In this document: in pieces, positions 3,007 through 60,456 of the stretch
Numbering within the stretch: position 1 is the first letter of the stretch
Layout of the letters: every line of letters starts with the position of its first letter
From: a virus
Length of the DNA: 64,000 bases
Strand: one strand, 5' to 3'
IMG/VR virus record: IMGVR_UViG_3300042453_004186
Span: 1-64,000 of that record
Made by a program: the position numbers and the translations under genes
The notes under the pieces: model-generated
Databases searched by the model: none
Told to the model about the DNA's origin: nothing
Seen by the model: only the letters and a program-made list of their open reading frames with translations

Positions 3007-3031
3007 TATTTATAATAAAATAAAAAACAAA

Positions 3032-5686: not shown

Positions 5687-5718
5687 TTTGGCCTATAAAA
5701 TCTTTATTACTATATTAC
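5687..5718 (+). promoter_or_regulatory. Predicted promoter, TTTG-N20-TATATTAC
   Basis: The -33-like TTTG is at 5687-5690, the spacer is exactly 20 bp, and the -7-like TATATTAC is at 5711-5718, 15 nt before the ATG at 5734. The TTTGGCC start is shared with the terminator-associated promoters elsewhere, but no hairpin is present here. The consensus resembles the Bacteroidota housekeeping promoter. Confidence 0.6.
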
Positions 5719-5733
5719 TAGAAAATAAAGGTT

Positions 5734-7011
5734 ATGTATTGGTTAGTAGAAACTAAAGATCAATTAAGAGAATTTTTTAATCAAGACTATAAAGAAGTCT
5801 TTGTTGAGATTATTCCTTACCATAATCAAATTCATCCTGCCTTAAATGATGTATGTTTAGTCTATATTAGACCAACTTATGATTCTAAAGGATATATGTT
5901 TTGTATTGACCATAGTGAAACAATGTCACTTGGAAAAACATATATTGAAAAATTATTAAAACATATAGACACAGTCTATGTTAGGGATAAAAAATCATTC
6001 TTATATTATTTCCAACTAAACAAAGTAACAGATATTTCTTCTATTAAGTATGTAGAAACTCCATCTGAACCTGTATTTGATATCTTTTATAGAAAACATC
6101 CTAATAAAACGGATATTAACAAAATAATTCCAATAGTTAAGCATTATGAGGTTTGTGAGAATATTTATACTCAACTCGAAGATGTTTTAAAGGCACCTAA
6201 ACCAGAATATGTTAAATTTTATAATAAAGGTGCTTTAGCATTTTTTGGGATTGAAAAGAACGGAATTAAAATTAATGAAGACAAGTTTTATAAATACTAT
6301 GAACCAAATAATAGCTTATACTCAGTACGCGATAGTAGGGTGTTTACTCAATATAACCTCAATACTACAACAAGACGCCCATCTAATGCCTTTAATAGCA
6401 TTAACTTCGCTGCTCTAAAGAAAGATAACCACTCAAGATCGAGCTTTATACCACAAAACAATGAATTTCTTGAAATTGATATTTCAGCGTACCATCCAAC
6501 TTTGGCTGGACAATTGGTTGCTCATGAATTTGACAACCCTGATATTCATGCTGATTTTGCTAGCATGTATGGCGTAGACTACGCTAAAGCAAAAGAATTA
6601 ACATTCAAACAGTTATATGGAGGAGTATTTAAACAATACCAACACCTCGAATTCTTCCAGAAAATACAAAAATACACAAATACAGCTTGGAACCAATTTA
6701 CCACTACTGGTATCTTTACAGCACCAGTTTCAGGTTACATATTTAAAAACGATTCATTAGAAAACATGAATCCGCAAAAGTTATTTAATTATATCTTACA
6801 AAACTTAGAAACATCAATAAACATAGGTATACTACTTAAAATTCATAAGATATTAGCAGGTAAAAATACTAAAATAGTTCTATACACATATGACTCATTT
6901 CTACTTGATTGGGATGAAGATGAAGAACAAGAATTAGAAGCAATAAAAAACATATTTAAAGAACTAAATTTAGCAATCAAAATTAATAGAGGACGCAGTT
7001 ATGACTTTTAA
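5734..7011 (+). CDS. Divergent family A (PolA-like) DNA polymerase
   Basis: This 425-residue protein carries a family A polymerase core. TTRRPSN at 212-218 corresponds to the TGR segment. Motif A is EIDISAYHP with D249, and DIH at 270-272 is conserved. Motif B keeps K287-x3-F291-x3-Y295-G296, as in PolA and T7 polymerase, but the usual upstream Arg is Tyr. Motif C is YTYDS with D387. The first 130 residues resemble a shrunken 3'-5' exonuclease domain without visible DxE residues. The two metal-binding Asp are kept, so activity is plausible. The phage also has a family B replicase at 21580, so this enzyme may serve repair, primer processing or bypass. Confidence 0.75.
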   Translation: MYWLVETKDQLREFFNQDYKEVFVEIIPYHNQIHPALNDVCLVYIRPTYDSKGYMFCIDHSETMSLGKTYIEKLLKHIDTVYVRDKKSFLYYFQLNKVTDISSIKYVETPSEPVFDIFYRKHPNKTDINKIIPIVKHYEVCENIYTQLEDVLKAPKPEYVKFYNKGALAFFGIEKNGIKINEDKFYKYYEPNNSLYSVRDSRVFTQYNLNTTTRRPSNAFNSINFAALKKDNHSRSSFIPQNNEFLEIDISAYHPTLAGQLVAHEFDNPDIHADFASMYGVDYAKAKELTFKQLYGGVFKQYQHLEFFQKIQKYTNTAWNQFTTTGIFTAPVSGYIFKNDSLENMNPQKLFNYILQNLETSINIGILLKIHKILAGKNTKIVLYTYDSFLLDWDEDEEQELEAIKNIFKELNLAIKINRGRSYDF

Positions 7012-7505: not shown

Positions 7506-7537
7506 CTTGGCCTATTAAGAAAAATGTAGTATATTAT
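7506..7537 (+). promoter_or_regulatory. Predicted promoter, CTTG-N20-TATATTAT
   Basis: CTTG is at 7506-7509, followed by 20 bp and TATATTAT at 7530-7537, 27 nt before the gp32-like ATG at 7565. The stretch TTGGCCTATTAA mirrors the promoter at 5687 (TTTGGCCTATAA). It is the only intergenic gap of any size in the replication block and would drive the gp32-to-nrdA run. Confidence 0.55.
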
Positions 7538-14652: not shown

Positions 14653-14684
14653 TGTGGCCTTCGGGCCATTTTTTATTATCTTTA
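14653..14684 (+). promoter_or_regulatory. Predicted promoter built around a terminator, TGTG-N20-TATCTTTA
   Basis: TGTG at 14653-14656, a 20 bp spacer consisting of the terminator hairpin and T-run, and TATCTTTA at 14677-14684. The ATG of the next gene is at 14689, only 4 nt past the box, so a leaderless mRNA is likely. Confidence 0.6.
14656..14675 (+). terminator. Rho-independent terminator after nrdA (UUCG loop)
   Basis: The GGCC-TTCG-GGCC hairpin at 14656-14667 has an exceptionally stable cUUCGg tetraloop and is followed by ATTTTTT. It lies 23 bp after the nrdA stop. It is embedded between the two boxes of the next promoter. Confidence 0.8.
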
Positions 14685-18795: not shown

Positions 18796-19288
18796 AAATG
18801 AAGTTATTGATGCGAGAGTAGATCATATCGCAACACAAATTCTAAACCGCCATAAATCCGAAAAAATTCCAATTGTATTGGTATGTGTATTAAATGGTGG
18901 TTTTTTATTCTTTAATGAAATAGTTAAACGACTATCATCATTAGACCCTGAGGTTGATTTCGTAAAAGTAAGATCATATGAAGGTAGAGAACGAGGTGAT
19001 CTACAAATGATACTTGAAAAATCAACAAATGTTACTGGTAAACATGTTTACATCATAGATGATATCTATGACTCAGGAATAACAATGAATGCTCTAGCCA
19101 ATTACTTCTACTCATACGACCCAGCAAGTGTTCAAATGGTTACTTTAATTAAACGATACATCAATGAAGTAAATATGCCTGTAGGCTCACTTTATGGATT
19201 TGAAATTACAGATGAATGGGTAGTAGGATATGGGATGGATGATGATTTAGGAAAGAAAAGAAGTTTGCCTTATATATTGGCAATCTAA
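18779..19288 (+). CDS. Hypoxanthine/purine phosphoribosyltransferase-like
   Basis: This 169-residue type I phosphoribosyltransferase has the PRPP-binding motif VYIIDDIYDSGITM near residue 91-104. LVCVLNGGFLFFNEIVKRL near 36 and VKVRSYEGRE near 65 match the HGPRT pattern. It would join a purine base to PRPP. Placement inside the queuosine-type cluster raises the idea of salvage of deazapurine bases, but ordinary purine salvage is equally consistent. Confidence 0.82.
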   Translation: MKVLFENEVIDARVDHIATQILNRHKSEKIPIVLVCVLNGGFLFFNEIVKRLSSLDPEVDFVKVRSYEGRERGDLQMILEKSTNVTGKHVYIIDDIYDSGITMNALANYFYSYDPASVQMVTLIKRYINEVNMPVGSLYGFEITDEWVVGYGMDDDLGKKRSLPYILAI

Positions 19289-19307
19289 AAATAATTTATT
19301 ACATTTA
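19276..19307 (+). promoter_or_regulatory. Predicted promoter for folE, ATTG-N20-TACATTTA
   Basis: ATTG at 19276-19279 lies inside the 3' end of the phosphoribosyltransferase gene, followed by 20 bp and TACATTTA at 19300-19307. The folE ATG is 6 nt downstream. No hairpin is present between the boxes. Confidence 0.5.
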
Positions 19308-20642: not shown

Positions 20643-20670
20643 AAAGACCTGGCGCCCCAGGTCTTTTTTT
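20643..20670 (+). terminator. Rho-independent terminator after the deazaguanine operon
   Basis: An 8 bp stem AGACCTGG / CCAGGTCT (20645-20652 and 20657-20664) with a CGCC loop, extended by A-T pairs and followed by a run of seven T. It is the strongest hairpin in the window. The 5' arm carries the CTGG that serves as -33 box of the next promoter. Confidence 0.88.
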
Positions 20671-20681
20671 GTGTATATTTA
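20649..20681 (+). promoter_or_regulatory. Predicted promoter around a terminator, CTGG-N21-TATATTTA
   Basis: CTGG at 20649-20652 is inside the hairpin stem, and TATATTTA is at 20674-20681. The spacer is 21 bp, one more than in the sister elements. The ATG at 20692 is 10 nt downstream. Confidence 0.5.
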
Positions 20682-21540: not shown

Positions 21541-21566
21541 AGGCTTGGGAAACCAAGCCTTTTTTA
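21541..21566 (+). terminator. Rho-independent terminator before polB (GAAA loop)
   Basis: AGGCTTGG / CCAAGCCT stem at 21541-21548 and 21553-21560 closed by a GAAA (GNRA) tetraloop and followed by TTTTT. It terminates the fibre-like gene transcript and doubles as spacer of the polB promoter. Confidence 0.85.
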
Positions 21567-21575
21567 TTATATTTA
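21544..21575 (+). promoter_or_regulatory. Predicted polB promoter around a terminator, CTTG-N20-TATATTTA
   Basis: CTTG at 21544-21547 sits in the 5' stem arm, with a 20 bp spacer and TATATTTA at 21568-21575. The polB ATG (21580) is 4 nt downstream. Confidence 0.62.
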
Positions 21576-21579
21576 GGTT

Positions 21580-24165
21580 ATGTACCAAGCAATATATTAC
21601 GATCGCCAAACCTATACTTACTACTTACGAGATGATAAACAAGGCTGGATGGATTTCCAACTCCAGCCTACGTTTTGGAAACGTGTTCCTGGATGGCAAG
21701 AAGGTGCTAGACCCGTTTTAACTGGTGGTTGGGCTATTCCTACTAAAAAGTTTAACAAGGATGATAAGGATTTGTTAGAAAAAGATATTGACAAATCATT
21801 ATATGCTTTACGAGAATTATACTACAAAGAAGATGATGTTGTGCCTTCTTGGCATAACATTGTTTATATAGATATTGAGATTGAAATGGGTGGTGCCTTA
21901 ACACCAAGCTATGTCCAACAAGCACCTATGCCTTTAACATCTATTGCTCTTATAGATATAACAACTAAACAAAAAATATGCTTAATTGTTGACCCATCAG
22001 GCCAAATCGAGGAAGTTAACCAAGATGGTAAACATATTATTCCTTGTAAAAACGAACGCGAACTAATAGGTAAATTTTTATCTAAATATGAAGAATTAGA
22101 CCCTACAATATTAGTAGGATATAACTCAGATTATTTTGATATGCCGTATCTTTACCACCGTTTAATGCAAGTTATAGGTGAAGAGGAAACATCACGTTTA
22201 TCTCCAATTAGAAAAATAAGTGTTAGAGAATTTAATGGTGAATCACAAATCACTATTGGTGGTGTTAACTGTTTAGATTATATGTTACTTCATAAAAAAT
22301 ATATTATGAAGGAAGAACCATCATATAAATTAGGTGATATTGGAACCAAGTATGTTGGTTTAGGTAAGATTGAGTATGAAGGTAATTTGAATACGTTATT
22401 TAGAGATGATCTAGATAGATTTATAGAATATAATCTTCGTGACGTTGAAATTATTGAGGCATTGGAGGATAAACTTAAGTTTATCAACCTAACAATAATG
22501 ATATCCCATATCTGTAATATACCTTATGAATCAATCTACTATAATACAGTAATGAATGAGGGTGCTATATTGAAGCATCTTAAACGTGAAGGCATCATAT
22601 CACCAAACAAACCAACCACCCATAACCCAGCACTAAAATCATTTAAAGCAAGTTATGCTGGTGGTTATCTACTAGAACCTATACCTGGTTTGTATTTTGA
22701 TGTTATCGACTTAGACTTTACTTCACTATATCCTTCAATTATTAAATCACTTAATTTAGGTATTGAGACATTAGTTGGTAGAATTAAAGTTGATTATAAT
22801 GCAACATATGAGCAAAACCATAGTTTAGAAAAACTTAAAGAACGTAACCCTGAAGAAGTAATAGTAATTGAAAAAGTAAATAAAAAAGATTATACTACAT
22901 CTCAAACCAAAGTTACTATTAAGCAACTAATAAGTATTATTGAAGAAAGTAATTTAACAGTAGCAGCATCTGGTGCTATGTTTAGAACAGATGAACAAAG
23001 TGTTGTTGCTAAAATTCTAGAAGGTTGGTTTGATAAACGAGAACATTACCGTGGTTTAAAGAAAAAAGCAGGTAAAGAAGAAGATTGGGCTAACTATAAG
23101 TTATATGATTTGTTCCAACACGCATTCAAAATCTTACAAAACGCAATGTATGGTACATTTGCTAAAAGTGGATGGAGATATACTGATGGCCAACTAATAT
23201 GCAGTGCTGCTATTACAAACACAGGACAAAGATTAACCCAAGAATCAATTGTATTTACCAATAACAAACTAAACACCGAACTAAAATCAGATAAACAATA
23301 CATCTGTATTAGTGATACTGACTCAATGTATATTGAACTAGGTGATTTATTAAGACATAGGTACCCAGATGCTACTAAAGAAGAAAAGGACAAGTACATA
23401 TTAGAAATGGCACTTGAAATCCAAAACGAAGCAAATGCTAACTTGGATACAATGTGTAAAGAATTATTTAATATTGATGCTTCTAAACATTACTTCCAAT
23501 TAAAACAAGAAGTAATTGCTACCGGTATCCTGGTTACTGGTAAGAGAAGATACGCTATGTATGTTACTAATAAGGAAGGTGTTGCTGTTGAAGAATTGGA
23601 TATGAAGGGGCTTGAATTGATGAAGTCTAACATGAATAAACGATTCAAAGGATTTGGTGAGCAATTTATTAAAGATATTTTATTTGGTAAACCGAAATCT
23701 GAGTTAGATACTTCAATCATTAATTTTTACAAGTTAATCAAAACATTAGATCCTAAAGAATTAGGCAAACCTACTGGAGTGAAACAAATCAATTCGTATA
23801 AGGTGCCAGCCCGAGCAGGTGAAATGTTTAGTTCATTTAAACTAAAAGCACCAGCTAATACTAAAGCAGCAGTACGTTATAATGACTTGCTTAAATTTAA
23901 AAGATTAGACAAGCAGTACGAATCAATTATTGAAGGTGATAAAATCTTTATTATTAATCTAAAAGCTAATCCTTATAAATTAGAAACAATCGGTTTACCC
24001 AATGCTAAGGTTCCTGATGAAATAGAAAAATTTGTTAAGGATTATATTAATGTAGATGAGATTTTTGAATCGTTGCTATTAAACAAATTAAAGGAACTTT
24101 ATAGTGACCTTAAATGGGAATTTCCGCCTTTAAATGCTAATGTTACAAAATTCTTTGCCTTCTAA
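21580..24165 (+). CDS. Family B DNA polymerase (replicative)
   Basis: This 861-residue polymerase resembles T4 gp43 in layout. The 3'-5' exonuclease has VYIDIEIE (D98, E100) and the later YNLRDVEIIEAL. The polymerase domain has DLDFTSLYPSIIKSLNLG near 376-393, KILQNAMYGTFAKSG near 517-531, and SDTDSMYIEL near 577-586, all catalytic residues intact. VTGKRRYAMYV near 655 is the KKRY-type primer-contact motif. The C-terminus ends in NVTKFFAF, a likely clamp-binding tail. It is the main replicase, supported by the clamp gene 23 bp downstream. Confidence 0.95.
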   Translation: MYQAIYYDRQTYTYYLRDDKQGWMDFQLQPTFWKRVPGWQEGARPVLTGGWAIPTKKFNKDDKDLLEKDIDKSLYALRELYYKEDDVVPSWHNIVYIDIEIEMGGALTPSYVQQAPMPLTSIALIDITTKQKICLIVDPSGQIEEVNQDGKHIIPCKNERELIGKFLSKYEELDPTILVGYNSDYFDMPYLYHRLMQVIGEEETSRLSPIRKISVREFNGESQITIGGVNCLDYMLLHKKYIMKEEPSYKLGDIGTKYVGLGKIEYEGNLNTLFRDDLDRFIEYNLRDVEIIEALEDKLKFINLTIMISHICNIPYESIYYNTVMNEGAILKHLKREGIISPNKPTTHNPALKSFKASYAGGYLLEPIPGLYFDVIDLDFTSLYPSIIKSLNLGIETLVGRIKVDYNATYEQNHSLEKLKERNPEEVIVIEKVNKKDYTTSQTKVTIKQLISIIEESNLTVAASGAMFRTDEQSVVAKILEGWFDKREHYRGLKKKAGKEEDWANYKLYDLFQHAFKILQNAMYGTFAKSGWRYTDGQLICSAAITNTGQRLTQESIVFTNNKLNTELKSDKQYICISDTDSMYIELGDLLRHRYPDATKEEKDKYILEMALEIQNEANANLDTMCKELFNIDASKHYFQLKQEVIATGILVTGKRRYAMYVTNKEGVAVEELDMKGLELMKSNMNKRFKGFGEQFIKDILFGKPKSELDTSIINFYKLIKTLDPKELGKPTGVKQINSYKVPARAGEMFSSFKLKAPANTKAAVRYNDLLKFKRLDKQYESIIEGDKIFIINLKANPYKLETIGLPNAKVPDEIEKFVKDYINVDEIFESLLLNKLKELYSDLKWEFPPLNANVTKFFAF

Positions 24166-24936: not shown

Positions 24937-24968
24937 TTAGGTCTTTTATTAAAAAGTTTGTATATTTA
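24937..24968 (+). promoter_or_regulatory. Possible promoter, TTAG-N20-TATATTTA
   Basis: TTAG at 24937-24940, 20 bp, TATATTTA at 24961-24968, then 19 nt to the ATG at 24988. The -33 box is one base off TTTG. A second TATATTTA-like stretch at 24918-24927 lies upstream without a matching -33. Confidence 0.4.
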
Positions 24969-27507: not shown

Positions 27508-27539
27508 TTTGGCCTTCGGGCCATTTTTTATTATCTTTA
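27508..27539 (+). promoter_or_regulatory. Predicted clamp-loader promoter around a terminator, TTTG-N20-TATCTTTA
   Basis: Perfect TTTG at 27508-27511 whose G is the first base of the hairpin, a 20 bp spacer containing hairpin and T-run, and TATCTTTA at 27532-27539. The gp44-like ATG is 4 nt downstream. Confidence 0.68.
27511..27529 (+). terminator. Rho-independent terminator after the chaperonin operon (UUCG loop)
   Basis: GGCC-TTCG-GGCC hairpin at 27511-27522 followed by A and six T. It is nearly identical to the terminator after nrdA. Confidence 0.82.
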
Positions 27540-36862: not shown

Positions 36863-38779
36863 ATGCATAAAGTAGTTCATAAACCTTGGGGAAAAGAAGA
36901 ATGGTTAGCATTAAATGATTTTTATTGCTACAAACGAATTTACATAAATGCTAAGTATAAAACCAGCTATCAATACCACCAATTTAAACATGAAACCAAC
37001 TACATCATTTCAGGAACAGCTGAAGTGTGGTTAGAAAATGATGAGGGTGTTGTTGAGAAAAAAATTATGGGTGCCGGGGACTTTTTTGATGTTACTCCAC
37101 CTAAAAAGCATAGAGTTATAGCTATAACTGATATTATTTTACAGGAAGTATCTACCCCACACGTAGACGATGTTATTAGAATAAACGATGAATTTAATCG
37201 AACAGACGGAAAAGTAGAAGCAGAGCATAAAACACCGGCAGTACTGATTCTAGCAGCCGGGATAGGCAGTCGTTTAAAAAATTTAACTAAAAATATTAAT
37301 AAAGCATTATTACCTATTAACAATAAGGCTATTATTTCTTATATTATAGATAAATTCCCTAATGAATATGAATTTGTAGTAGCCCTTGGGTATAAGGGAG
37401 AATCACTAAAAGAATATTGTCTGCTAAATTACCCAAACCATAAATTTACATTCGTAAACATTAATAACTTCGACCAAGAAGGTTCAGGGCCTGGGTACTC
37501 AGCACTGCAGTGTAAACAACATTTGCAACGCCCGTTTTATTTTGTAGTAGCAGATTGTATTATAGACTCAAAAATGCCCCATTTAGATGGAAATTGGTTA
37601 GGCGTTTACCCTACTAGCTACCCTGAAAAATACTCCACAGCAGATGTAGATGAAAATGACAATATCCTAAAATTTGTAAACAAAGACACACAAGGATATG
37701 ACAACGCATTTATAGGTCTAGCCAGCATTTGGGATTTTGATATATTTTGGAGTGAACTAGAATCTAATACTCAAAATGGGGAAATAGTATCTGCATTTAA
37801 AAACCCAGACAAATACCCTAGCTTTAAAGCTAAGCATCTAAAATGGTTAGACACAGGTAATTTAGATGATTTAAACCGAACTAAAGAGTATTTTGGTGAT
37901 AATCCGTTGTCATTGTACAAAGTAACAGATGAAATAACATATAAGGAAAATAAATTTATCAAATTTAATCCTAGTGAAACATTTATTGAAAATAAAACAG
38001 AACGAGCTAATATTTTAAAAGATATTATCCCGTCTGGGTTTTCTAATAGTAAGTATTTTATTAGTTATAATTGGGAAAATGGGGAAACATTGTACCACTA
38101 TGATAATTTAAATTATTTTCTTAAGTTTTTAGATTTTTATGATAACCTTATTAGTACTAAAGCTAAGTTTTTTGATGGAAACATAAATGAATTTACCGCA
38201 TTTTATATTGATAAAACTAATCAACGCAAAAATAAATTTATAGAAAAATTTGGAGAGCAATATGCTGAACAAGAATACTCTATTAATGGTGTTAAATACA
38301 AATCCTTAAACAACATATTAGATAATCTAAACATTGAGCATGCTGCTTTTAAAATGTATGATTTATTTCACGGTGATTTACAATTCGATAATATACTTTT
38401 TGACCCAACAACTGATAAGTTTACATATATTGATTGGAGAGAATCATTTGCTGGTAATACAAAAGGTGGAGATTTGTACTATGATTTAGCTAAATTATAT
38501 GGTGGTTGTATTATCCCTTATAATAAAGTTAAAGACGATTCATATATTACTTTAAATGAAGGGTCATCTAACATAAGTTATTCTTGCAAGGTATCTAAAC
38601 ATTTGGCCCAATTTAAAACAGAATACGAAAAATGGATAGTAACCAATGGATATGACTTAAACACAGTAAAACTCATTACAGCTATAATATTCTTAAACAT
38701 GTCCCCACTTCATGATGATAAATTTTCTAAAATGCTGTGGTTTAAATCTATTGAATTGCTTAGCAATGCTAATAAATAA
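36863..38779 (+). CDS. Cupin - nucleotidyltransferase - kinase trifunctional fusion
   Basis: This 638-residue protein has three domains. Residues 1-115 are a cupin of the mannose-6-phosphate-isomerase C-terminal type (KPWGKEEW, YHQFKHETNYIISG). Residues about 124-355 are a sugar-phosphate nucleotidyltransferase with LILAAGIGSRLKNLTKNINKALLPI and VVADCIID. Residues about 375-638 are an aminoglycoside-phosphotransferase/choline-kinase-like kinase with FHGDLQFDNILFD near 500 (catalytic Asp) and YIDWRES near 522. It could phosphorylate, then activate, a sugar or alcohol such as a choline- or mannose-type substrate. Fusion boundaries are inferred from motifs. Confidence 0.8.
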   Translation: MHKVVHKPWGKEEWLALNDFYCYKRIYINAKYKTSYQYHQFKHETNYIISGTAEVWLENDEGVVEKKIMGAGDFFDVTPPKKHRVIAITDIILQEVSTPHVDDVIRINDEFNRTDGKVEAEHKTPAVLILAAGIGSRLKNLTKNINKALLPINNKAIISYIIDKFPNEYEFVVALGYKGESLKEYCLLNYPNHKFTFVNINNFDQEGSGPGYSALQCKQHLQRPFYFVVADCIIDSKMPHLDGNWLGVYPTSYPEKYSTADVDENDNILKFVNKDTQGYDNAFIGLASIWDFDIFWSELESNTQNGEIVSAFKNPDKYPSFKAKHLKWLDTGNLDDLNRTKEYFGDNPLSLYKVTDEITYKENKFIKFNPSETFIENKTERANILKDIIPSGFSNSKYFISYNWENGETLYHYDNLNYFLKFLDFYDNLISTKAKFFDGNINEFTAFYIDKTNQRKNKFIEKFGEQYAEQEYSINGVKYKSLNNILDNLNIEHAAFKMYDLFHGDLQFDNILFDPTTDKFTYIDWRESFAGNTKGGDLYYDLAKLYGGCIIPYNKVKDDSYITLNEGSSNISYSCKVSKHLAQFKTEYEKWIVTNGYDLNTVKLITAIIFLNMSPLHDDKFSKMLWFKSIELLSNANK

Positions 38780-39374
38780 AGATACTAAAATATTCTGCTC
38801 ATTTTCCTCTAACCCCGGAAATAATGGATGTGAATTTTTTAATACTAAATTCCAAGAAAACAATATTAATGCTGTATATAAGTCGTTTTACTCAAATGAT
38901 ATAGCTAAATCCATAGACGCCGTTAAAACATTAGATATTGCTGGATTTGCTGTTAGTATGCCATTTAAAACCACAGTATTAGATTATGTTGATGAAATAG
39001 ATGATGCAAGCCAAAACATAGGTGCTGCTAACACTATCACAAATACAAACGGGTATCTAAAAGCATACAACACAGATTGGATAGGGGTTTCTAAATATAT
39101 TTTGGAAAGCATTGATTTTTTAACTATATTGGGTGATGGAGGATTTAGTAAAGCTATTCAATATATGTGTGTTAAAAAGAATATTCCATATCAAATTATC
39201 ACAAGAAAAGATTGGGATAAAGTATACAATTTAGAAGGATATGTTTTTAATGCTACCCCGATAGATGTAAATACTAAAGGACATTTGATAGATGGTAGAC
39301 CATTTACTGAACAAGGTAAGATAATAGCTAAATTACAAGCAGAAGAACAATATAAAATATACATAAACTTATGA
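38766..39374 (+). CDS. Shikimate dehydrogenase-like (AroE family) oxidoreductase
   Basis: This 202-residue protein follows the AroE layout: FAVSMPFKTTVLDYVDE with K68, NIGAANTITNTNG, YNTDWIGV with D104, and the nucleotide-binding GDGGFSKAI at 123-131. Lys and Asp match the catalytic pair of shikimate dehydrogenase. The N-terminal substrate-binding SLS motif is missing (FSSNPGNNG instead), and the protein is about 70 residues short. It probably reduces a different ketone. The ATG at 38766 overlaps the fusion gene by 14 bases; the longer frame from 38712 lies inside that gene. Confidence 0.72.
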   Translation: MLINKDTKIFCSFSSNPGNNGCEFFNTKFQENNINAVYKSFYSNDIAKSIDAVKTLDIAGFAVSMPFKTTVLDYVDEIDDASQNIGAANTITNTNGYLKAYNTDWIGVSKYILESIDFLTILGDGGFSKAIQYMCVKKNIPYQIITRKDWDKVYNLEGYVFNATPIDVNTKGHLIDGRPFTEQGKIIAKLQAEEQYKIYINL

Positions 39375-40348
39375 CACCTAAATACTTTATAGGACCGATG
39401 TCCAAAAATGTAGTAGACACTATTATAGAGTTTTGCAATGAAACAAATAATACCATAGGTCTAATCCCATCTCGTCGACAAGTAGAATGGAATGGAGGGT
39501 ATGTAAACAATTGGTCAACCAAAGAATTTGCAAACTATGTTAGATCTAAAACAGATAAAATTCTACTAGTTAGAGATCACTCAGGCCCAGGACAAGGGCA
39601 ATTAGATGATGATGGATACCAATCCTTGTCAGAAGATTGTAAACATTTAGATATTATTCATATTGATCCTTGGAAAAAGTACCCCGCCTTTAACTTAGGA
39701 TTAAAAGAGACAATCAAAATGATTGAATATTGTTATGATCTAAACCCTAATATACAGTATGAGGTAGGCACAGAAGAAGCCATTAGACGATTTGAACCAT
39801 ATGAATTAGATGATTTAATACACCAACTTAAATCCCAATTGACCCCTGAAGTATTTAACCAAATAAAATACCTAGTAATCCAATCTGGTACTTCTTTAAA
39901 AGGAACAAATCAAACTGGTGCTTATGACTCTAGTAGATTAAAAGAAATGATTGATGTATGTAAACGCCATAATCTTATCTCTAAAGAACACAATGGAGAC
40001 TACATCCCAGTTTCTACTATTAAAGAAAAATTTGAATTAGGATTAGACTCAATTAATATTGCCCCTGAATTTGGGTTAATTGAAACATTAACTTATCTAA
40101 ATGAAATAACCGATTCTGACACATTTGAAAAATACTTTCAAATATGTTATGATTCTAAAAAATGGGTAAAATGGGTAAATGAAGATTTTGACCCACATTC
40201 TAATAAAGAAGAATTGATTAAAATATGTGGTCATTATGTTTTATCTAACCATCATTTTTTATATGATATTAAATCTAAATTTCCCAATATAGATCAACAA
40301 GTTAAAAACAATATCAAAAACAAATTAAAAGAGTTATATGGATGCTAG
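39371..40348 (+). CDS. GatZ/KbaZ-like aldolase-family TIM-barrel protein
   Basis: This 325-residue protein has IGLIPSRRQVEWNGGYVNNW, LLVRDHSGPGQGQ, IIHIDPWKKYP and YEVGTEEAIRRF. The order resembles the tagatose-bisphosphate aldolase GatZ/KbaZ family (Q-x-GGY, DH-x-GP, KIHLD). It would bind a sugar-phosphate or catalyse aldol chemistry. Similarity is at motif level only. The gene overlaps the AroE-like stop by four bases and the HAD gene start by 11, and ends with one of only two TAG stops seen in the window. Confidence 0.6.
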   Translation: MTPKYFIGPMSKNVVDTIIEFCNETNNTIGLIPSRRQVEWNGGYVNNWSTKEFANYVRSKTDKILLVRDHSGPGQGQLDDDGYQSLSEDCKHLDIIHIDPWKKYPAFNLGLKETIKMIEYCYDLNPNIQYEVGTEEAIRRFEPYELDDLIHQLKSQLTPEVFNQIKYLVIQSGTSLKGTNQTGAYDSSRLKEMIDVCKRHNLISKEHNGDYIPVSTIKEKFELGLDSINIAPEFGLIETLTYLNEITDSDTFEKYFQICYDSKKWVKWVNEDFDPHSNKEELIKICGHYVLSNHHFLYDIKSKFPNIDQQVKNNIKNKLKELYGC

Positions 40349-52255: not shown

Positions 52256-52287
52256 TTTGTCTTATTTATTTTTTGATATTATCTTTA
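52256..52287 (+). promoter_or_regulatory. Predicted promoter, TTTG-N20-TATCTTTA
   Basis: TTTG at 52256-52259 directly follows the TAA of the last glycan gene, with exactly 20 bp to TATCTTTA at 52280-52287. The ATG of a 58-residue ORF is 7 nt downstream. No hairpin lies between the boxes. Confidence 0.62.
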
Positions 52288-53191: not shown

Positions 53192-53832
53192 TGGCTAAGC
53201 CCAAACCCATAACTAAAGAAATGGTTGTTAGTGCGATGGATAAAACTAAATCCGTTCGTGCTGCGGCCCGTTACTTGAATTGTTCTTATCAACACCTTAA
53301 AAAATACATGAAGGTGTATAAGAACGAAGATGGGATTTCGTTATTTGAGGCACATAAAAACCAATCTGGTAAAGGTATACCTAAATTCCTTACCCACTCA
53401 CATTTTAAGAAAAAAGACCCGGCTATACTAGATATAATTGAAGGTAGAGTAGACGCATCTCACTTCAACCCACAGAAATTAAAGTATAGAATGATAACTG
53501 AGGGTTACTTAAAAGAAGAATGTGCTAATTGTGGGTTCCATGAAAGACGGGTTTCTGATTATAAGACTCCACTAATAATGCATTTTAAAGATGGTAATAA
53601 ACAGCACTATAACTTAGGTAATGTAGAAATGCTTTGCTATAATTGTTATTATCTAATGGTGGGAGAAGTATTTGATAACAAACAAATTGAAGGTTTAGAG
53701 GACCACAAACCCACATATAACAGCCAAGTTGATTGGGAATTAGATGATTATACTAAACAACGATTATTGGAATTAGGACTAGATAAACCCGAACCTAAAG
53801 ACGACGGATCAGAATTTATTAGTAGATTCTAA
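53191..53832 (+). CDS. HTH plus HNH-like zinc domain protein
   Basis: This 213-residue protein has an N-terminal helix-turn-helix-like segment (SVRAAARYLNCSYQHLKKYMKVYK near 22-45). A C-terminal HNH-like module follows: CANCGFHERR near 111 (first Cys pair), PLIMHFKDGNKQHYNLGNVEMLCYNCYYL near 127-155 with His, Asn and the second Cys pair. The last HNH His is Tyr, so nuclease activity is doubtful and a DNA-binding role is possible. The AGGAGG upstream is one of the few clear Shine-Dalgarno sequences here. Confidence 0.68.
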   Translation: MAKPKPITKEMVVSAMDKTKSVRAAARYLNCSYQHLKKYMKVYKNEDGISLFEAHKNQSGKGIPKFLTHSHFKKKDPAILDIIEGRVDASHFNPQKLKYRMITEGYLKEECANCGFHERRVSDYKTPLIMHFKDGNKQHYNLGNVEMLCYNCYYLMVGEVFDNKQIEGLEDHKPTYNSQVDWELDDYTKQRLLELGLDKPEPKDDGSEFISRF

Positions 53833-54777: not shown

Positions 54778-54809
54778 TTTGGCCTACGGGCCTTTCTTTC
54801 GTATATTTA
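54778..54809 (+). promoter_or_regulatory. Predicted promoter around a terminator, TTTG-N20-TATATTTA
   Basis: Perfect TTTG at 54778-54781, a 20 bp spacer of hairpin and T-run, TATATTTA at 54802-54809. The next usable ATG is at 54826. This is one of the two best matches in the window. Confidence 0.68.
54781..54800 (+). terminator. Rho-independent terminator (UACG loop)
   Basis: GGCC-TACG-GGCC hairpin at 54781-54792 followed by TTTCTTTC. The UNCG-type loop is conserved with the other short hairpins while its second base varies. Confidence 0.75.
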
Positions 54810-54825
54810 CAGAAAAGCAAATGTT

Positions 54826-54948
54826 ATGAAACGAGACGTAAAACCAGATGATGTGTTTTTTGTTCTAGCAGCAACAATTGGGGTAGCAGTAATATCAATG
54901 TATGCTATATCAGCAGTGTTTAATTTAATTGTTTATCTAATAAAATAA
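54826..54948 (+). CDS. Small single-pass membrane protein
   Basis: This 40-residue peptide has a charged N-terminus (MKRDVKPDD) and a hydrophobic stretch from about residue 11 to 38 (VFFVLAATIGVAVISMYAIS and on), enough for one membrane helix. An ATG at 54821 is followed by an early stop, so 54826 is used. It could be a holin-like or other inner-membrane peptide; there is no direct evidence for lysis. Confidence 0.55.
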   Translation: MKRDVKPDDVFFVLAATIGVAVISMYAISAVFNLIVYLIK

Positions 54949-56487: not shown

Positions 56488-56514
56488 AAGGCTTGGATCA
56501 CCAAGCCTTTTTTA
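56488..56514 (+). terminator. Rho-independent terminator (ATCA loop)
   Basis: AAGGCTTGG / CCAAGCCTT stem at 56488-56496 and 56501-56509, ATCA loop, followed by T-run. The stem is the same as that of the terminator before polB (21541) with a different loop. Confidence 0.85.
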
Positions 56515-56523
56515 TTATATTTA
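56492..56523 (+). promoter_or_regulatory. Predicted promoter around a terminator, CTTG-N20-TATATTTA
   Basis: CTTG at 56492-56495 in the stem, 20 bp, TATATTTA at 56516-56523, then 19 nt to the ATG at 56543. Confidence 0.6.
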
Positions 56524-58895: not shown

Positions 58896-58927
58896 CTGGG
58901 CCTTCGGGCCCTTTTTTCGTACATTTA
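58896..58927 (+). promoter_or_regulatory. Predicted promoter around a terminator, CTGG-N20-TACATTTA
   Basis: CTGG at 58896-58899, 20 bp spacer, TACATTTA at 58920-58927, and the next ATG 4 nt on at 58932. The -33 box is degenerate while the spacing is exact. Confidence 0.52.
58898..58917 (+). terminator. Rho-independent terminator (UUCG loop, 5 bp stem)
   Basis: GGGCC-TTCG-GGCCC hairpin at 58898-58911 followed by six T. Confidence 0.83.
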
Positions 58928-60424: not shown

Positions 60425-60456
60425 TTTGGCCCTCGGGCCTTTTTGTCGTATATTTA
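60425..60456 (+). promoter_or_regulatory. Predicted promoter around a terminator, TTTG-N20-TATATTTA
   Basis: Perfect TTTG at 60425-60428, 20 bp spacer holding the hairpin, TATATTTA at 60449-60456. The ATG at 60483 follows a 26-base AT-rich leader with AAAGGTTATG. Confidence 0.68.
60428..60444 (+). terminator. Rho-independent terminator (CUCG loop)
   Basis: GGCC-CTCG-GGCC hairpin at 60428-60439 followed by five T. Confidence 0.75.

Follow-up and report, generated by a model that had tools for sequence, protein, structure and literature searches.

Candidate transcription terminators nested within promoter spacers in T4-like phages predicted to infect Flavobacterium-type bacteria

Introduction

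At eight intergenic sites in the genome of a T4-like virus, a hairpin with a T-run lies between a TTG-type box and a TAnnTTTA box. Does a single sequence of about 32 bp end one transcript and start the next at these sites, and is the overlap more than a coincidence? The window analysed here comprises 64,000 nucleotides of a 64,424-bp IMG/VR virus record (IMGVR_UViG_3300042453_004186). Its T4-like genes encode a family-B polymerase, a UvsX-like recombinase, NrdA, QueC, GroEL, an RFC-like clamp loader, ClpP and a gp32-like protein. Neither known RNA families nor tRNA genes were found in the window.

Hairpins between predicted promoter boxes

All eight sites listed in the original prediction were found at their coordinates when the window sequence was reread (Table 1), and an independent scan of the + strand for GC stems followed by T-runs returned these eight and no others. 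In all eight, the hairpin with T-run is followed by the box; on the - strand, the same scan gave three matches, none of them with a box after it. First-order random 64-kb sequences contained 0.18 such hairpins each, and none was nested in 60 trials.

Table 1. Nested modules and related promoter-like sites in the window
Positions	Strand	Feature	Remark
5687..5718	+	promoter geometry without hairpin: TTTGG-N19-TATATTAC	
7506..7537	+	promoter geometry without hairpin: CTTGG-N19-TATATTAT	before gp32-like gene
14653..14684	+	nested module: TGTGG (-33), stem TGGCC-TTCG-GGCCA (14655-14668), T-run, TATCTTTA (-7; 14677-14684)	ATG 4 nt after
19276..19307	+	promoter geometry without hairpin: ATTGG-N19-TACATTTA	
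20646..20681	+	terminator GACCTGG-CGCC-CCAGGTC + T7, then TATATTTATA	weak -33; spacer 21
21542..21575	+	nested module: stem GGCTTGG-GAAA-CCAAGCC including CTTGG (-33), T-run, TATATTTA	before family-B DNA polymerase; ATG 4 nt after
24937..24968	+	promoter geometry without hairpin: TTAGG-N19-TATATTTA	by eye
27508..27539	+	nested module: TTTGG, stem GGCC-TTCG-GGCC, T-run, TATCTTTA	before RFC-like AAA+ clamp-loader gene; ATG 4 nt after
52256..52287	+	promoter geometry without hairpin: TTTGT-N19-TATCTTTA	by eye
54778..54809	+	nested module: TTTGG, stem GGCC-TACG-GGCC, TTTCTTT, TATATTTA	
56490..56523	+	nested module: stem GGCTTGG-ATCA-CCAAGCC including CTTGG, T-run, TATATTTA	
58896..58927	+	nested module: CTGGG (-33), stem GGGCC-TTCG-GGCCC, T-run, TACATTTA	ATG 4 nt after
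60425..60456	+	nested module: TTTGG, stem GGCC-CTCG-GGCC, TTTTTGT, TATATTTA	

The proposal that all eight share one design holds for seven of them, which fit TTTGG/CTTGG-N19-TAnnTTTA, two with one mismatch at -33; at 14653, the mismatched box is TTTGG in the orthologues. The eighth, at 20649, departs from it and reads CCTGG at the -33 position. Since a separate promoter-like box, TATTTATA, lies within its TATATTTATA box and the orthologue in L043 has no TTGG, the site is probably an ordinary terminator before a TATTTATA-type promoter and thus a different module. The -33 box had further been placed within the 5' arm of the stem. This is true of the whole box in the GGCTTGG sites, but the GGCC sites have just the GG of TTTGG within the stem, with the TTT outside it. 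That the arrangement wastes no bases was an overstatement, as 6-30 nt of non-coding DNA separate the upstream stop codon from the hairpin; at six of the eight sites, the hairpin is preceded by 20-30 nt of such free DNA.

With a GC stem, a short loop and a T-run directly after it, the modules look like intrinsic terminators. The predicted folding energies of the window hairpins, -8.7 to -15.3 kcal/mol, are in a range similar to those of two terminators of phage RB49 (-10.6 and -15.3 kcal/mol). In some modules, the T-run is interrupted (ATTCTTTAT, AATCTTTAT) and the stem only 4 bp long, suggesting that termination may be partial.

Recurrence in related viruses

A set of 76 related viral loci was found via the polymerase. 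Under a strict rule, 45 of their 55 unique hairpin-plus-T sites on the + strand were nested, compared with none of the 25 - strand sites (p = 5e-13; as contigs and loci are related, this and the following p-values overstate independence and are indicative only). A lax reading adds a few nested + strand sites, and hardly any terminator of these phages was found at a different distance from the promoter box. Free-gap scans across all viral contigs, in which the gap before TATATTTA could be anything from 4 to 30 and no spacing was therefore presupposed, gave the same picture: CTTGGN4CCAAG was followed by TATATTTA at a gap of 10 in 51 of 70 unique sites among the matches listed, and GGCCTTCGGGCC at a gap of 9 in 52 of 67 sites. 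TTT preceded GGCCTTCGGGCC in 49 of the 52 correctly spaced sites vs. 0 of the 15 at other gaps. When the box was scrambled, no such peak appeared, except for matches overlapping the module's own TATATTTATTA and one related sequence family. A chance origin was rejected on the basis of the random sequences, the strand control, the free-gap scans and the scrambled-box control. The nesting and the spacing scans thus put the sharing of about 32 bp by a putative terminator and a putative promoter far from chance. The nested module is real; its roles in termination and initiation are predicted from its sequence.

Predicted promoters with and without a hairpin

Five further sites in the window, intergenic or near-intergenic, have the promoter geometry without a hairpin (Table 1). 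The enrichment of the spacing that had been predicted for related genomes was borne out: on the + strand of the 76 loci, TTGG-Nk-TA[TC]NTT occurred at 202 sites with k = 19 (equivalent to TTG-N20) vs. about 22 at other values of k, and the - strand of these loci had no spacing peak. The 202 sites comprise 146 without a hairpin, 7 with a hairpin lacking a T-run, and 49 with hairpin and T-run. As about three quarters of these promoters have no hairpin, the hairpin is dispensable for promoter function.

The phage sites have the two boxes of Bacteroidota primary-sigma promoters, TTG or TTTG at -33 and TAnnTT at -7, some 19-21 bp apart. In these bacterial promoters, the -7 box, TAnnTTTG, spans positions -12 to -5 in Flavobacterium psychrophilum and other Bacteroidetes (PMC9723704). 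Another likeness is that no Shine-Dalgarno sequence was seen before the starts. The phage promoters differ in that the box usually ends in A, not G, and in that the spacing is tightly 19-20.

Between the -7 box and the ATG (window sites 14653, 21542, 27508 and 58896; L004-L078), the distance has two peaks, at 4-6 nt (about 72 of the 165 promoters whose ATG is no more than 45 nt away) and at about 15 nt. A -7 box at -12 to -5 would leave transcripts of the 4-6 nt class with no leader or almost none, and this class far exceeds the leaderless share of 5.5% reported for F. psychrophilum (PMC9723704). Leaderless genes were considered as a reason for the nesting and rejected: near-leaderless starts follow 28 of 47 hairpin promoters and 45 of 118 others, an association (p = 0.015) that is weak, since the sites are related.

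Boxes of the type TATTTATA also occur shortly before start codons, at window positions 3007, 3394, 14988, 20676, 30344 and 58140. In the cultured Flavobacterium phage vB_FspM_immuto (Immutovirus; hereafter immuto), an ATG follows within 24 nt after 20 of 30 + strand copies. These boxes seem to form a promoter class of their own, perhaps a late one.

Conserved geometry and changing stems

Among the CTTGG stems, the lengths of stem and tail add up to 15 throughout (5+10, 6+9, 7+8, 8+7, 9+6): the total is fixed by the promoter geometry, so a longer stem has a shorter tail. N19 is also kept with the stems GGCC, GCTCC and GGCCTC. At orthologous sites before the polymerase gene, the stem is GGCTTGG/CCAAGCC, GGCTCC/GGAGCT or GGCCTC/GAGGCC, and at those before the RFC-like gene it is GGCC-UUCG, GGGCC, GGCTTGG or GGCTTGC. 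U-G and G-U pairs are present in several stems and would suit an RNA hairpin of the + strand, although transitions in the 3' arm mostly yield wobble pairs anyway. It had been argued that selection acts on the design and that the sites are not copies of one element. The preservation of N19 or N20 while stems are swapped at orthologous sites supports the former, but copying happens as well, as the sites at 14653 and 27508 have approximately 30 identical bases in common.

In four loci (L006 13354, L009 13354, L010 3281 and L056 13895), the spacer hairpin GCTTGG-CCAAGC is followed by A's, not T's, and the L009 copy carries a compensatory change to GTTTGG-CCAAAC. These hairpins are not terminators, and the inverted repeat may have a second role there.

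Genomic placement and gene exchange

The module tends to occur where the upstream gene differs from the conserved neighbor. Upstream of the family-B polymerase gene, a promoter was found in 2 of 30 loci with the conserved neighbor vs. 21 of 30 with another gene (p = 5e-7), and 11 of those 21 promoters carry the hairpin. At the next junction (24189), the hairpin module was present beside none of 44 conserved vs. 8 of 23 changed neighbors (p = 8e-5). The RFC-like gene has 17 unrelated upstream neighbors among 35 phages, mostly with the module, which is also present beside the commonest of them. At two control junctions, uvsX and RFC+1, the neighbors are mostly conserved and the promoter is absent.

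In L036, near-identical modules at 6338 and 6923 flank a gene for 174 amino acids, which lies between the usual neighbor and the RFC-like gene. Similarly, near-identical modules at 340 and 636 in L176 form direct repeats around a small gene. Such repeats could permit gain or loss of genes via homologous recombination.

Host and distribution

Most members of the group are metagenomic, and the promoter type together with immuto points to Flavobacterium-type bacteria as their hosts. The UvsX-like protein of the window is 60% identical to that of immuto, which is annotated with an ssDNA-binding protein, gp32-UvsX, NrdA, QueC, GroES/GroEL and glycosyltransferases. In the region corresponding to that of the family-B polymerase (window 21580-24165), immuto has a family-A polymerase (37898-40231), with similar neighbors and GroES/GroEL following, an apparent polymerase replacement. 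In immuto, TTG-N20 peaks at 60 sites, compared with 2-10 for other spacings, and the four nested modules found there (33322, 67962, 70245 and 104388) have stems peculiar to this phage. Several other terminators of this phage, including those near the capsid and terminase genes, are un-nested.

No nested site was found in the scanned parts of phages phi38:1, crAss001 and FCL-2, and the module was therefore rejected as a general feature of Bacteroidota phages. In the scanned parts of Microcystis phage Mel-JY01 (L332), the best named match of the polymerase, the hairpins are ordinary and un-nested. Its record contains TTTGG-N19-TATATTTG at 53695 and 66116 and a mild excess of TTG-N20; the phage may really infect a member of the Bacteroidota that shared the culture. 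A general host feature was rejected too: the free-gap scan of cellular genomes with the host-type box TATATTTG was flat, and among 296 genomes of Zobellia's order, Flavobacteriales, a scan for the CTTGG type yielded three matches, all of them at a wrong gap.

Proposed mode of action and alternatives

The module is quite probably a two-in-one signal, working as a promoter when in DNA and as a terminator when in the RNA transcribed from upstream. Both signals would be read by the Flavobacterium-type RNA polymerase of the host. At the DNA level, TTTGG or CTTGG at -33, N19, and TAnnTTTA or TATATTAA at -7 would make up a primary-sigma promoter from which the next gene is transcribed, a role to which consensus, spacing and position point. 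At the RNA level, the stretch that separates the boxes and extends into the -33 box would fold into a tetraloop hairpin followed by U's, which, by the established anatomy of intrinsic terminators, may release the upstream transcript some 7-9 nt past the stem. The predicted release point would be at the edge of the -7 box, approximately 12 nt before the next start. In this way, the module may end the transcript of an extra gene, keep read-through off the promoter, and restart a core gene. As the copies are near-identical, they could double as short homology for gene exchange.

Two further readings bear on why the two signals are nested. The hairpin may be a terminator whose position is a by-product of crowding, short gaps leaving no other room before the promoter. 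The genes are dense indeed, with intergenic gaps of 48-85 bp at most window sites, but free non-coding DNA precedes the hairpin at most sites (see above), terminators are nearly absent at other distances from the promoter box, and the similarly dense, T4-like RB49 has a tandem arrangement; we consider crowding possible but doubtful. The free DNA upstream also makes the economy of bases insufficient as an explanation. Alternatively, the nesting might serve a hand-over, in which the polymerase, having released its RNA at the edge of the -7 box, does not leave the DNA but binds sigma and starts anew some 12 nt downstream. This is conceivable since released polymerase can remain on the DNA and re-initiate nearby, and a terminator near a promoter is predicted to favor re-initiation by the same polymerase (PMC6978380, PMC6978322, PMC11347151). 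In those studies, terminators and promoters are separate, whereas in the phage module release would occur no more than about 12 nt from where the next transcript starts. We regard the hand-over as unlikely; if it did occur, a single polymerase would transcribe one gene block after another into messages of their own, which would often be leaderless.

Other readings dispense with one of the two signals. The inverted repeat could be a DNA operator that overlaps the -33 box and binds a dimeric phage regulator, the T-run being incidental. The recurrence of the CTTGG/CCAAG palindrome and the few copies in promoter spacers without a T-run would fit, but at least five unrelated stems occupy this place (GGCC, GGCTTGG, GCTCC, GGCCTC and those of immuto), also by exchange at orthologous sites, nearly all loops are 4 nt and of RNA-type tetraloops (UUCG, GAAA), T-runs are on the 3' side only, and wobble pairs replace Watson-Crick pairs in several stems, with the reservation made above. 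An operator is therefore very improbable. Still less credible is a hairpin that stabilizes or defines the 3' end of a processed upstream mRNA with no termination involved: GC-rich tetraloop hairpins can protect RNA 3' ends, but protection does not require a T-run, and one that comes right behind the stem, mostly on just the + strand, is the hallmark of an intrinsic terminator. We give equally little credence to the TA box being a T4-type late promoter, which needs no -35 element, with an accidental TTG at -33. In its favor, the genomes are T4-like and several genes, among them the one at site 20649, have a TATTTATA box before them, but TTGG is fixed at N19 in the 146 hairpin-free sites as well, TTG is fixed at N20 in immuto, and TTT before GGCC goes with the correct spacing.

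Comparison with known systems

Arbiol et al. in 2010 and Comeau et al. in 2014 reportedly described PeSL (promoter early stem-loop) cassettes in T4-like phages such as RB49 and phi1. A PeSL consists of an early promoter and a stem-loop and is tied to gene shuffling in T4-like phages (PMC4503421); the cassettes are also cited in another account (PMC5931544). The phage modules resemble PeSLs in combining a host-type promoter with a stem-loop terminator, in being repeated within one T4-like genome, and in lying beside exchangeable genes, for which PeSLs have likewise been proposed as short homology. However, in the RB49 sequence examined, the stem-loop is followed by 16-34 nt and then by a complete TTGACA-N17-CATAAT promoter, whereas the hairpin of the nested module lies inside the promoter and the stem has bases in common with the -33 box. 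As they may work alike but are arranged differently, we keep the two apart. Synthetic terminator-promoter bifunctional elements of yeast (PMC10298055) also have both roles in one element but are engineered, eukaryotic and fused, not nested in a spacer. A literature search on terminators overlapping promoters returned nothing on point. The original prediction knew of no description of the module in Bacteroidota phages, and the search gave no match for the nested arrangement, but composite promoter-terminator cassettes are known, with the two parts side by side in RB49.

Concluding remarks

The nested terminator-in-promoter is a new arrangement beside the promoter-terminator cassettes already known in T4-like phages. 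A promoter spacer, usually seen as filler, can house a full candidate terminator, and selection preserves the geometry of the promoter while the putative terminator inside is repeatedly rebuilt. As a cultured pair, immuto and Flavobacterium sp. LMO8, carries the module, termination, initiation and hand-over are directly testable, and a compact insulated part is on offer for the genetics of Bacteroidota. For the T4-like phages themselves, the finding links gene exchange to a compact part that may stop one transcript and start the next.
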